64,000 nucleotides of DNA from Flavobacterium azooxidireducens. GTDB lineage: Bacteria > Bacteroidota > Bacteroidia > Flavobacteriales > Flavobacteriaceae. Under the pieces are notes generated by a model. That model ran no database searches. It was given only the letters and a program-made list of their open reading frames with translations, and had not been told where the DNA came from. This document shows, in pieces, positions 1,962 to 40,920 of this stretch. How positions within the stretch are numbered: the stretch's first letter is position 1; each line of letters starts with the position of its first letter. Made by a program: the position numbers and the translations under genes. The DNA lies in assembly GCF_023195775.1 (NCBI RefSeq), contig NZ_CP096205.1:1922001-1986000 (forward strand). The letters run 5' to 3'.

Positions 1962-4900
1962 ATGAAATACTTCCACGAAAAAATCGAAGCCAAATGGCAA
2001 GAATATTGGGCTAAAAACCAAACCTTTGCCGCACAAAATAATTCTGAAAAACCAAAATATTATGTGTTGGATATGTTTCCGTACCCATCCGGAGCAGGTT
2101 TACACGTAGGTCATCCGCTGGGATATATTGCTTCAGACATCGTGGCTCGTTATAAAAGACACAAAGGTTTTAATGTGTTGCATCCACAAGGATATGATTC
2201 ATTCGGACTTCCGGCGGAGCAATATGCCATTCAAACCGGGCAACATCCCGAAAAAACGACCAAAGAAAATATAGCTCGTTATCGTGAGCAATTAGATAAA
2301 ATCGGTTTTTCATTCGATTGGAGTAGAGAAGTTCGCACATCAAATCCGGATTATTACAAATGGACGCAGTGGATTTTTATTCAATTGTTTGATTCGTATT
2401 ATTGTAAACACTCCGATCAAGCATTTCCAATTTCAGAATTGGTAAAAGTGTTTGAAGCCGAAGGAAATGCCAATGTGGATATCGTTTGTGATGACAACAT
2501 AGAAATTTTTTCAGCAGCTGAATGGAATGCATTTTCATCTGAAAGACAACAAGAAATTTTATTAAAATATCGCTTAACGTATTTAGCCGAAACCGAAGTC
2601 AACTGGTGTCCCGCTCTAGGAACCGTTTTGGCGAACGACGAAATTGTCAATGGCGTTTCCGAACGTGGAGGTCATCCCGTCATCCGTAAAAAAATGACCC
2701 AATGGAGTATGCGAATTTCTGCGTATGCGGAACGTTTGTTACAAGGTTTAGAAACCATCGATTGGAGCGAAAGCATTAAAGAAAGTCAACGTAATTGGAT
2801 TGGAAAGAGTGTTGGGGCGATGGTTTCCTTTAAAATCCTCCCCCCAACCCCCTCCAGAGGAGGGGGAGGCGAGCCGGGATATATGACCGGAGACCCGCTT
2901 TTGTCAAAAGATTTGTTGCCTCACGCTGTAGAAATGAGAAGAGAACCCACTTTTGCAGAAGCTATGTTGTGGGAAGAATTGAGAAAAGAAAAGCTTGGTG
3001 TGAGATTCAGAAGACAGCACTTAGTCGGAAAATACATTGCCGATTTTGTTTGTTTAGAGAAAAAGTTAATAGTAGAAGTGGATGGTGAATATCACAACAT
3101 ACCAGAACAACAAGCTTTAGATGCAGAACGAACATTAGAACTCGAACAAAAGTATTTTTTCAAAGTAATTCGCTTTACAAACGATGAAGTAAAACACCAT
3201 ATCAGCATTGTTCTAAAAAAAATAAAAGAAACACTAGATTCAAGACAAAGTTACCGCCCAGTCTCCCCCTCCCTTGGAGGGGGTCGGGGGGAGGAAATTT
3301 CCGTCTTCACAACCCGCCCCGACACCATCTTCGGCGTAACCTTCATGACCCTCGCACCCGAGCACGAACTGGTTTCGCAAATCACAACTCCTGAACAAAA
3401 AGCAGCTGTAGATGCGTACGTAGAAGCAACATCAAAACGTTCCGAAAGAGAACGAATGGCCGATGTAAAAACCATTTCCGGTGTTTTCACAGGAGCGTAT
3501 GCCGAGCATCCGTTTACCAAAGAACCCATTCCGGTTTGGATAGGCGATTATGTGTTAGCCGGTTATGGAACCGGAGCTGTAATGGCTGTTCCGTGTGGAG
3601 ACGAACGCGATTATGCGTTTGCCAATTTCTTCAAAGGAAAAGAAGGAATGCCCGAAATTAAAAACATTTTCAACCAAGATATTTCCGAAGCCGCTTTTGC
3701 AGAAAAAAGTGGTTTTGAATTAGTCAATTCTGATTTTTTAAACGGTCTAGGTTACAAAGAAGCCACCAAAAAAGGCATTGAAGCTTTAGAACAAATTGGT
3801 CAAGGAAAAGGAAAAACCAATTACCGTTTGCGTGATGCGGTTTTCTCAAGACAACGTTATTGGGGCGAACCGTTTCCAGTTTACTACGTTAATGGTTTGC
3901 CGCAAATAATTGATGTTAAACATCTTCCAATCATTTTACCTGAAGTAGAGAAATATTTACCCACAGAAGACGGACAACCGCCGTTAGGAAATGCTACGCA
4001 CTGGGCTTGGGATGTGGAAAAGTTGCGAGTTACGAGTTGCGAGTTGATTGATAACAAAACCGTTTTTCCATTAGAATTGAACACGATGCCGGGTTGGGCA
4101 GGTTCTTCTTGGTATTGGATGCGTTATATGGATGCTCACAATGAAAACGAATTTGCAAGCCAAGATGCTTTGAACTATTGGGAAAACGTAGATTTATACA
4201 TTGGTGGTAGCGAACACGCCACCGGACATTTATTGTACTCCCGTTTTTGGAATAAATTTTTAAAAGACCGCGGCTTCATCACACCCGAGGAACCATTTAA
4301 AAAATTGATTAATCAAGGGATGATTTTAGGGATGAGTGCTCTAGTGAAAAAAATAACAGAGGTTTTGATTGATTGTCCAAAAATTGGATTACATCATGTC
4401 TTTAAATTGGCTAGACCAGTTTGTCTTTCTGATGATTATTATGAAGTTGAATCAGAAACTGATTATAATTTGCGAAAATTATATATTAACTCAATTGATG
4501 ATGAAAAGGTAAAAGAAGTTTTGAGTGGAATAGAAATAAACGAAATTGAAATTAAAATATATAATTCATTTCAATTACATGTAGATGTTAATTACATTAA
4601 CTCTTCAGATGAGTTATTAATAGAAGAATTTGAAAAATCAGCTATTTATAATTCTAATTTTGAAAACACAACATTTTTTAAAATAAATGAAAGGTTTAAA
4701 GTCTCTCGAGAAGTCGAAAAAATGTCCAAATCCAAATACAACGTAGTCAACCCCGACGATATTTGCAACCAATACGGAGCCGACACCTTACGTTTATACG
4801 AAATGTTCCTCGGTCCATTAGAACAAGCAAAACCTTGGAATACAGCCGGAATTACCGGAGTTTCAGGCTTCCTGAAAAAATTATGGCGTTTGTATTTTGA

Positions 4901-5399
4901 CGATAATGGTTTGATTGTCACTAATGATGAACCAACCGCAGAAATGTACAAATCATTACACAAAACCATCAAAAAAGTAACAGAAGACATTGAGAATTTC
5001 TCGTTCAATACTTCCGTTTCACAATTTATGATTTGTGTGAACGAATTGGCTCAGTTAAAATGCAATCACCGAAAAATTTTAGAACCGTTAGCTATTTTGG
5101 TTTCACCGTATGCTCCGCACATTGCCGAAGAATTATGGAGTCAATTGGGTCACGAAGGTTCGGTTTCAACCGTAGCATTTCCAATTTTTGAAGAGAAATA
5201 TTTAATAGAATCCGAAAAAGAATATCCGGTTTCTTTTAATGGGAAAATGCGATTCACAATCAAATTACCATTGGATTTAACCGCTGCTCAAATTGAAGAA
5301 ATTGTGATGGCAGACGAACGCACCCAAGCTCAATTGCAAGGAAGAACGCCAAATAAAGTGATTATTGTTCCCGGGAAAATTATCAACTTAGTGGGATAA
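1962..5399 (+). CDS. leuS: leucyl-tRNA synthetase with in-frame DUF559 insert
   Basis: It charges tRNA-Leu and edits mischarged products. The class I signatures are HVGH (about residues 49-52) and EKMSKSKYN (about 918-926). The editing threonine-rich motif FTTRPDTIFG begins near residue 449. At 1145 residues it is about 200 longer than usual flavobacterial LeuS. Two segments explain the excess. Residues about 292-445 are a DUF559 nuclease domain flanked by hairpin-forming inverted repeats. The leucyl-specific region before KMSKS (about 793-913) carries some 50 extra AT-rich residues. The catalytic core, editing core, anticodon-binding domain and C-terminus all read normally without stops, so the enzyme is probably functional. 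It is followed by a clear terminator at 5416-5458. The start ATG at 1962 gives the usual MKYFHEKIEAKWQEYW N-terminus. Confidence 0.95.
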   Translation: MKYFHEKIEAKWQEYWAKNQTFAAQNNSEKPKYYVLDMFPYPSGAGLHVGHPLGYIASDIVARYKRHKGFNVLHPQGYDSFGLPAEQYAIQTGQHPEKTTKENIARYREQLDKIGFSFDWSREVRTSNPDYYKWTQWIFIQLFDSYYCKHSDQAFPISELVKVFEAEGNANVDIVCDDNIEIFSAAEWNAFSSERQQEILLKYRLTYLAETEVNWCPALGTVLANDEIVNGVSERGGHPVIRKKMTQWSMRISAYAERLLQGLETIDWSESIKESQRNWIGKSVGAMVSFKILPPTPSRGGGGEPGYMTGDPLLSKDLLPHAVEMRREPTFAEAMLWEELRKEKLGVRFRRQHLVGKYIADFVCLEKKLIVEVDGEYHNIPEQQALDAERTLELEQKYFFKVIRFTNDEVKHHISIVLKKIKETLDSRQSYRPVSPSLGGGRGEEISVFTTRPDTIFGVTFMTLAPEHELVSQITTPEQKAAVDAYVEATSKRSERERMADVKTISGVFTGAYAEHPFTKEPIPVWIGDYVLAGYGTGAVMAVPCGDERDYAFANFFKGKEGMPEIKNIFNQDISEAAFAEKSGFELVNSDFLNGLGYKEATKKGIEALEQIGQGKGKTNYRLRDAVFSRQRYWGEPFPVYYVNGLPQIIDVKHLPIILPEVEKYLPTEDGQPPLGNATHWAWDVEKLRVTSCELIDNKTVFPLELNTMPGWAGSSWYWMRYMDAHNENEFASQDALNYWENVDLYIGGSEHATGHLLYSRFWNKFLKDRGFITPEEPFKKLINQGMILGMSALVKKITEVLIDCPKIGLHHVFKLARPVCLSDDYYEVESETDYNLRKLYINSIDDEKVKEVLSGIEINEIEIKIYNSFQLHVDVNYINSSDELLIEEFEKSAIYNSNFENTTFFKINERFKVSREVEKMSKSKYNVVNPDDICNQYGADTLRLYEMFLGPLEQAKPWNTAGITGVSGFLKKLWRLYFDDNGLIVTNDEPTAEMYKSLHKTIKKVTEDIENFSFNTSVSQFMICVNELAQLKCNHRKILEPLAILVSPYAPHIAEELWSQLGHEGSVSTVAFPIFEEKYLIESEKEYPVSFNGKMRFTIKLPLDLTAAQIEEIVMADERTQAQLQGRTPNKVIIVPGKIINLVG
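2837..2869 (+). repeat. left hairpin inverted repeat of the DUF559 element
   Basis: A C-rich then G-rich palindrome with the core CCCCCTCC-AGA-GGAGGGGG. It is the reverse complement of the repeat at 3263-3294, apart from about three mismatches. Confidence 0.85.
3263..3294 (+). repeat. right hairpin inverted repeat of the DUF559 element
   Basis: The palindrome CCCCCTCC-CTT-GGAGGGGG is followed by the tail GTCGGGGGGAGG. The same architecture, with core CCCTCTCC-TTT-GGAGAGGG and tail GTCGGGGTGAGG, occurs at 40805-40837, so this is a dispersed REP-like family. Confidence 0.85.
4020..4046 (-). repeat. CGCAAC-word repeat fragment within leuS
   Basis: Read on the minus strand this is CAACTCGCAACTCGTAACTC followed by GCAACTT, a tandem of CGCAACT-type words. 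Fifteen bases (CGTAACTCGCAACTT, complement of 4020-4034) match the intergenic copy at 18758-18772 exactly. In leuS it encodes KLRVTSCEL where relatives carry variable sequence of similar length. Confidence 0.45.
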
Positions 5400-40793: not shown

Positions 40794-40804
40794 AAATCCG
40801 CTTT

Positions 40805-40837
40805 CCTCCCTCTCCTTTGGAGAGGGTCGGGGTGAGG
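40805..40837 (+). repeat. REP-like hairpin, solo copy 1
   Basis: The core CCCTCTCC-TTT-GGAGAGGG is followed by GTCGGGGTGAGG, so the outer CCTC and GAGG can pair. Same family as the inverted repeats bounding the DUF559 insert in leuS. Confidence 0.75.
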
Positions 40838-40859
40838 TAAAAAAATAAAAATCCGCTTT

Positions 40860-40906
40860 CCTCCCTCTCCTTTGGAGAGTCCCGAAACTAATCGGGAGGG
40901 AAGAGG
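40860..40906 (+). repeat. REP-like hairpin, solo copy 2 with nested palindrome
   Basis: It repeats CCTCCCTCTCCTTTGGAGAG from copy 1 after a 55-bp period, including the upstream AAAAATCCGCTTT. Its right side is replaced by the palindrome TCCCGA-AACTAA-TCGGGA and ends GGGAAGAGG. It lies 14 bp before the nifU-like start. Confidence 0.75.
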
Positions 40907-40920
40907 TAAAAAAAGAAATA

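Follow-up and report, generated by a model that had tools for sequence, protein, structure and literature searches.

A predicted DUF559 nuclease domain between inverted hairpin units in leucyl-tRNA synthetase of Flavobacterium azooxidireducens: a probable REP-like element translated as part of its host

Why does the leucyl-tRNA synthetase (LeuS) of Flavobacterium azooxidireducens contain a predicted nuclease in the middle of its polypeptide? The leuS gene lies in a 64,000-nucleotide (nt) stretch of contig NZ_CP096205.1 (positions 1,922,001 to 1,986,000 of the forward strand), which we call the window and whose numbering is used throughout. Within its frame stands a 458-nt element that codes for a DUF559 domain and is bounded by two inverted hairpin units. 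The initial annotation regarded it as a mobile element, and the results below support that idea. We propose, with a probability of about 0.7, that the insert is one copy of a widespread element resembling the systems formed by repetitive extragenic palindromes (REPs) and RAYT transposases, that a nuclease replaces the transposase in it, and that it is translated as an unspliced domain of its host. It likely behaves like a REP/RAYT element that also has homing habits, and its movement would be driven by the nuclease. The features of the gene are as follows.

1962..5399, forward strand: leuS, the host gene; 1145 amino acids (aa) including the insert, a single unbroken frame.
2837..3294, forward strand: the complete inserted element, 458 nt by the ends given in the initial annotation; relatives have empty sites.
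2836..2877, forward strand: left unit; outer C-rich tail 2837-2847, stem 2848-2855 / 2859-2866, inner AGGCGAG.
3254..3295, reverse strand: right unit, an inverted copy of the left unit; stem 3276-3283 / 3265-3272.
2922..3236, forward strand: DUF559 domain, a predicted nuclease; LeuS residues 321-425, conserved E333, D361, E372, D374 and H378.

Is the composite gene genuine? Profile matches and repeat scoring confirm that a DUF559 domain stands in frame in leuS, with inverted copies of a hairpin unit of about 42 nt on either side. The frame is open throughout, as had been claimed. DUF559 (PF04480) matches LeuS residues 321-425 with an E-value of 3.5e-30 (104.5 bits, cut-off 20.6), the remainder of the protein matches LeuS domains in Pfam, and the bacterial LeuS equivalog profile gives the whole protein 896.7 bits (cut-off 548.4). 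Among Pfam profiles, the insert matches DUF559, weakly MTES_1575, and nothing else. The 42-nt arms are 83% complementary and reach a repeat score of 26.6, as compared to a maximum of 11.9 in 100 shuffles. A stem of 8 bp with a 3-nt loop is predicted in each arm, and the folding energy of the arms is ordinary for their composition (z = -0.57 and -0.27). Read from the outside inward, a unit consists of a C-rich tail CCTCCCCCC, a hairpin made of CCCCCTCC, a 3-nt loop and GGAGGGGG or a near variant, and an inner AG.C. motif. Chance or an assembly artefact is hardly credible as the source of this arrangement: the genome is one contig of 3.82 Mb with 99.98% completeness, and 285 proteins match the insert region, the 120 of them that were listed coming from several sources and many independent contigs. 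The Hint splicing domain of inteins was not matched in the window fusion (Pfam, E up to 0.001) or in 17 host frames (E up to 1e-5), which agrees with the earlier proposal of an unspliced synthetase-nuclease fusion. The structure model of the fusion is poor (predicted local distance difference test, pLDDT, 61.6; predicted template modelling score, pTM, 0.34), so the placement of the insert in a loop comes from sequence alignment alone.

Do such units accompany DUF559 elsewhere? Two sets of loci were examined. The first comprised 74 fetched Flavobacterium domains, picked largely for long frames, and its composition is not a frequency. The second draw comprised 80 named loci that were the best matches to an insert-rich alignment; it shares at least two genes with the first set (L254/L055 and L307/L024). 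In the second draw, matched inverted repeats scoring above 50 shuffles flank 67 of 79 DUF559 loci, one of the 80 being dropped for too little flank, as compared to 16 of 296 places drawn at random from those loci (Fisher p about 9e-46). The count is 48/60 for frames longer than 250 aa and 19/19 for shorter frames. In the first set, tested against 100 shuffles, 54 of 74 loci passed. The mean match score between units is 25.0 within an element and 11.6 between elements, the within-element figure being raised by the choice of the comparison set at a score of at least 17. Stems of at least 7 bp were found in 90 of 166 units vs. 0.6% of shuffles, and there are 38 distinct stems of at least 5 bp, so the stems vary among elements. 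A search for a known RNA family gave only a sub-threshold match for the unit (18 bits vs. 37). The expectation that DUF559 frames elsewhere would be flanked by repeats of this kind was thus borne out, and a lack of association is not what the loci display.

The units are also dispersed in genomes. The window genome has one match to DUF559 and one to a LeuS-specific stretch; its forward reading contains 29 hairpin cores, including the two in leuS. In the flanks of 22 loci of this genome, units of the CCCCTCC type outside leuS mostly share the same outer tail. Among 199 Flavobacterium genomes, the median number of hairpin cores is 5 in the 78 that bear DUF559 (match below 1e-20) vs. 0 in the other 121, of which 27 have weaker matches only. 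Five or more copies are present in 41/78 and 5/121 genomes, respectively. A backwards control pattern gave 0 among the genomes listed. Because the genomes are related, the p-values for unit counts across them are optimistic.

These counts bear on a possible role of another enzyme, for example an IS200/RAYT-type Y1 transposase, which would move the units with DUF559 as a passenger. Y1_Tnp (PF01797) is present in 144 of the 199 genomes, and in the 78 DUF559-bearing genomes the median unit number is 7 with Y1 (n = 59) and 1 without it (n = 19), as such a role would predict. However, Y1 on its own is a poor predictor of units (p = 0.07), and DUF559 predicts them in Y1-positive (p = 6e-15) as well as Y1-negative genomes (p = 0.002), both values being optimistic for related genomes. 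In the window element, DUF559 occupies 315 of 458 nt and there is no space for a transposase gene. The repeat test also fails in all four copies with changed catalytic positions. We consider a passenger role of DUF559 quite unlikely. RAYT as the sole mover was set aside as a weak candidate, since Y1 presence hardly tracks unit number.

Are the units found without the nuclease? Two of 12 metH (methionine synthase) site-B loops lacking DUF559 hold gene-less pairs of inverted units in frame (L028 and L049). In both, site A of the same metH holds a full element, and other genomes fill the B loop with the full element. The window has a solo example:

40805..40837, reverse strand: solo related unit of the CCTCTCC type, between two genes; a second, altered copy lies at about 40860-40907.

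Together they form a tandem CCTCTCC pair at 40797-40916, between a gene that we take to be Mrp/ApbC-like and the next frame. The repeat does flank the nuclease as first described, and its extent is wider than was claimed: it is a dispersed unit with gene-less miniatures. This bears on the possibility that DUF559 is a plain homing endonuclease, which would cut the empty loop allele and let repair copy the element in, the hairpins being tolerated linkers or barriers. Site-bound clades, kinship to I-Bth0305I and one pair of genes that is partly conversion-like (L034/L046), all described below, are in line with homing. However, the units also occur alone and as gene-less pairs, they match each other within an element, and they flank all 19 stand-alone frames tested, where a homing enzyme would not need them. 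Homing without a role for the units is therefore, in our judgement, unlikely.

Which hosts receive the element? A DUF559 match was found in 105 of 199 Flavobacterium genomes and in 222 of 395 Bacteroidota genomes. The first set contained inserts at LeuS site 1 (21) and site 2 (1), MetH site A (18) and site B (7), in a RecB-like helicase (10) and in RecG (5); the other places were mostly stand-alone (12). Further sites come from proteins matching the insert region: LeuS sites 3 and 4, and two in methionyl-tRNA synthetase (MetRS). In total, LeuRS has four sites, MetRS two and MetH at least two. In the second draw, 59 of 80 domains lie within a larger host frame and 21 are stand-alone. The Pfam domains found with DUF559 include class I synthetases, DegT aminotransferase, NAD-dependent epimerase, guanylate kinase (DUF559 N-terminal), methylmalonyl-CoA mutase with MeaB, UDP-GlcNAc 2-epimerase, aldehyde dehydrogenase with MaoC, IspF/YgbB (DUF559 N-terminal), a double ABC protein, MetH, MetRS, RecG and a UvrD-type helicase. 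Among the class I synthetase hosts, L241 and L280 are read as IleRS and L270 as ValRS. Some further hosts appear HsdR-like from their motifs alone. In L295, DUF559 lies at another place in MetH, and in L262 it is the sole Pfam domain of a 356-aa frame. Two inserts are present in some LeuS and MetH proteins. In the recurring hosts, the inserts are in frame and in loop-like stretches. The prediction that other core genes carry the same in-frame insert therefore holds for MetH, MetRS, RecG, the helicase and further synthetases. A LeuS with a DUF559 insert was also seen on a contig titled Candidatus Paceibacterota (L300), which is outside Bacteroidota unless misbinned. In Sphingomonas parapaucimobilis (L220, 1468-1878), a DUF559 gene lies between sufB and sufC, and an inverted repeat was not detected there.

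Is the nuclease maintained? Residues E333, D361, E372, D374 and H378 (window LeuS numbering) are kept in at least 97% of 105 inserts. The ratio of nonsynonymous to synonymous substitution rates (dN/dS) is 0.03-0.12 in 14 of 15 pairs, which indicates that the frame is under purifying selection. Of the 15 pairs, one shows saturation, and dS exceeds 1.5 in a further two. The repeat test is passed by 54 of 70 catalytically intact copies and by 0 of 4 copies with changed catalytic positions (L080, L081, L082 and L083). Three of these four belong to one clade, hence about two events are represented. Constraint persists in L080 and L081 despite the loss of the catalytic His (dN/dS 0.12), perhaps because the host must fold. 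The model of the DUF559 domain has a mean pLDDT of 80.6. The model and the family profile recover the same solved relatives: 3hrl, a gonococcal endonuclease-like protein (profile E 3.2e-29, Foldseek 3.1e-7), and 3r3p, the catalytic domain of I-Bth0305I, named a mobile intron protein (profile E 2e-6, Foldseek 9.4e-5); Vsr (1vsr) is more distant. From profile and model, the window domain is predicted to be a nuclease. Foldseek ranks 7-24 are Toxoplasma and Tetrahymena mitochondrial ribosome proteins with a similar fold and weak E-values. PADLOC defence families gave no match for the window domain and two weak ones for the stand-alone L052.

Do relatives have empty sites? They are common. In 23 of 24 same-genus relatives, LeuS frames are 939-1051 aa long; the remaining one (G016) has 1386 aa and two DUF559 inserts. 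Junctions without DUF559 were found in 27 other leuS loci from 26 genomes (L095 and L119 are one gene). An empty site was found in 25 of 30 RecG loci (EQRSKLWKKNxIPPH or close variants) and in 11 of 30 RecB-like helicase loci; the remaining loci were missed by the search expression or are filled (L130). A situation in which all relatives share the insert can thus be set aside. The empty leuS sites retain a short loop, e.g. SFHVNNHDAKIDVFTTRP. Therefore removing 154 codons would not yield the usual LeuS sequence, contrary to the initial annotation, and by alignment the insert replaces a few native loop residues rather than adding to an intact loop. The annotation was right that AAAT stands on both sides (2833-2836 and 3295-3298) and that 458 + 4 = 462 nt is 154 codons. 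AAAT does not, however, stand as a target duplication. An exact 4-bp direct repeat was found in 1 of 31 rows with placeable ends, at least one gene (L055/L254) having entered twice, and that row is the window element. At this 4-bp length, own flank pairs match at 0.94 of 4 positions and swapped pairs at 0.96.

Several side observations concern these ends and loops. In L078, L079, L244 and L297, the bases outside the defined ends are sometimes reverse complements or nearly so (e.g. TTCAGG / CCTGAA); the units may in truth extend further, or the target sites may be palindromic. L120 (leuS) has both ends without DUF559 and is likely the remnant of a lost element, and a short scar in a RecB-like gene (L152) likely marks another loss. 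In relatives, the empty leuS loop forms a hot spot of several unrelated in-frame repeats (L101, L107, L104-L106, L109-L113), among them VIASEAKQS or VIANEVKQS palindromes (L101 and L107), KVESQKS repeats (L104-L106) and a GTCATTGCGAGC..GCAATC palindrome. Elsewhere in the window leuS, an unrelated kind of in-frame repeat, GAGTTACGAGTTGCGAGTT, occurs at 4020-4045 and is translated as KLRVTSCELIDN; it has 2 matches at up to 3 mismatches vs. 0.01 expected in shuffles. The metH B loop of L033, L035, L036, L053 and L060 has in-frame ACAACC-rich repeats and no nuclease, and this loop seems to accept repeats in general.

Has the element moved? We compared the trees of insert and host at LeuS site 1 in 45 of 95 usable proteins, selected solely for host diversity. 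Placed on the host tree, the DUF559 alignment (105 columns) loses 580 log-likelihood units, as compared to 142 and 108 units for two host blocks of equal length. With 4 discordant proteins added, the difference is 796 vs. 122-229 for five host blocks. The insert fits the host tree far worse than the host blocks do. Pairs of proteins, compared after 25 of 120 were dropped as short, double or unfit for the LeuS site-1 expressions, diverge in both directions: P0030 and P0084 are 92.6% identical in the host and 58.1% in DUF559, whereas P0056 and P0058 are 64.3% identical in the host and 84.8% in DUF559. Occupancy varies between metH genes that are 87-89% identical in DNA between the sites (L034/L046, L026/L027 and L030/L045). 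In a tree of 119 domains, made by a quick method with 42 of 113 forks open, the clades track the insertion site, with 15 label changes as compared to a minimum of 11 and a shuffled mean of 62. This suggests that the usual move, if these are moves, is into the same site, with rare jumps. MetH site-A inserts L024 and L025 group in the site-B clade (Shimodaira-Hasegawa-like approximate likelihood ratio test 98, inner fork 88). One LeuS site holds different DUF559 lineages, and the branching pattern makes repeated arrival at LeuS site 1 probable (7 changes, 2 forced by strongly supported branches). The elements of L034 and L046 are nearly identical (dS 0.033); identity falls from 96-100% in the element to 86-96% within about 460 nt and to 77-83% at 550-730 nt.

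Does the fusion instead serve the host, a synthetase, methionine synthase or helicase having gained a nuclease domain with a cell function that is inherited with the gene? The low dN/dS (0.03-0.12), the site-bound clades, the many housekeeping enzymes among the hosts and the constraint on L080/L081 without the catalytic His would fit such a use. Against these points, empty sites are frequent in relatives, the insert is common to unrelated host families, a single LeuS site holds varied DUF559 lineages and elsewhere unrelated in-frame repeats, and the host and insert trees conflict. We consider a useful fusion very unlikely.

The reading of the insert as a REP-like element moved by its nuclease has to be set against several results that weigh on the other side. 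Movement is read from sequence patterns. The tree test is harsh, since even the host blocks reject the host tree. The clades follow the site closely; jumps to new sites are infrequent, and part of the pattern is due to inheritance with loss. Among nine close pairs, only L034/L046 is partly conversion-like, its identity rises again to 93-94% at 820-910 nt upstream, and the others lack a clear gradient. The repeat test fails in 16 of 70 intact copies, including all five RecG copies and five of one LeuS clade. The hairpin core is absent from 17 of 78 DUF559-bearing genomes, the five others noted above have at least five copies, and the window genome has a single DUF559 match. Outside Bacteroidota, the flank test passes in 5 of 12 loci fetched, of 38 plasmid records, with gene ends guessed in unannotated records; the five that pass are from Azospirillum lipoferum, Deinococcus, Picosynechococcus, Qipengyuania and Sinorhizobium meliloti.

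How might the element work? Made as part of LeuS, the nuclease would recognise hairpin units of its own kind, single-stranded or extruded, and would nick or cut at them, perhaps at the empty loop too. Replication or repair would then copy either the full element or a pair of units. Most copies would enter the corresponding loop in another cell (homing), and a new loop would seldom be reached. The site-bound lineages suggest that guidance to that loop in other cells may also come from the enzyme or from homologous flanks. In an essential gene, only in-frame insertions in a tolerant loop would survive. Loops of essential, well-translated genes may be favoured because they would supply expression for free, and loss would be hard because only rare in-frame deletions would remove the element harmlessly. 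A wider reading, which we offer tentatively and at somewhat less than even odds, is that DUF559 is the missing mobiliser of widespread bacterial C-rich palindromes (CCTCTCC-loop-GGAGAGG with a GGGGTGAGG tail, and their kin) and that these are a second kind of REP. Its Bacteroidota branch would then be a parasitic, unspliced domain of core enzymes that hops among surface loops and homes into them.

How does the element compare with known systems? In REP/RAYT systems (REPtrons, REPINs) too, short palindromes are scattered alone or as inverted pairs, the enzyme gene lies between inverted units, unit number tracks the enzyme gene, and no target duplication is seen. They differ in that their enzyme is an HUH Y1 tyrosine transposase whereas here it is a Vsr-like nuclease, and the gene here is often in frame inside other genes. 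GTAG and CGTC REPs are described in the available text of PMC3733652, the CGTC class without a dedicated transposase, as are REPs inside genes, including DNA repair genes. We searched for CGTC motifs near 12 non-Bacteroidota DUF559 loci; CGTCAT or its complement was found near 4 of 12 and formed no visible tagged palindrome, and we claim no connection of the present units with the CGTC class. A mostly Bacteroidetes subclass of Y1 transposases is flanked by atypical structures, and the main text of that report does not contain DUF559 or Vsr (PMC6006769). In-frame palindromic inserts are described for Wolbachia addA, addB and priA in the text available (PMC4224334). Such Rickettsia/Wolbachia palindromic elements and intragenic REPs are, like the present units, palindromes in frame in protein genes and apparently tolerated (PMC3733652, PMC4224334). 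As far as those sources describe them, they are gene-less repeats, REP dimers or groups that add 20 to 30 residues, whereas the present element includes a complete, conserved enzyme domain and has the gene-less pair as its miniature form.

With Vsr-like homing endonucleases such as I-Bth0305I (3r3p), the element shares the fold, detectable sequence kinship and site-bound lineages, and with homing endonuclease elements in general also empty alleles and conflict between host and insert trees. 3r3p is listed as a mobile intron protein; here an intron or intein to remove the insert was not found, and the insert lies between hairpin units. Inteins that contain homing endonucleases are likewise in-frame nuclease inserts in conserved enzymes with empty alleles, but a splicing domain was not matched here and a few native loop residues are missing at the insert. 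Unlike an insertion sequence with a DDE transposase, the element has no 4-bp target-site duplication (1/31). The stand-alone DUF559 proteins (NCBIfam PRK09767; Caulobacter VsrA) belong to the same family. A Caulobacter DUF559-domain protein is reported to drive a DNA damage response in cells without a cytosine methyltransferase; it is read there as a mismatch-repair enzyme, and the available text mentions neither repeats nor mobility (PMC12907096). Judged by title or abstract start, the DUF559 literature gave no link to repeats or mobility, preprints and most subscription journals lying outside the search. Searching by unit sequence returned only papers that look unrelated by title. The element has the architecture of a REP system and not its enzyme, and it is kin to homing endonucleases without an intron or intein. 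We therefore place it in neither class and regard it as categorically new.

If this reading is true, essential enzymes harbour a mobile element that is translated with them and stays unspliced. Such a lifestyle would differ from those of introns, inteins, insertion sequences and palindromic inserts without a gene. A testable role is gained for DUF559, whose function as a family is unknown, and a class of palindromic repeats is offered an enzyme. The element would explain the odd extra domain often annotated in synthetases, methionine synthases and helicases of Bacteroidota. It would also provide a map of the stretches in LeuRS, MetH, RecG and other proteins that accept an insert of 150 residues, which may be of use in protein engineering and structural biology.

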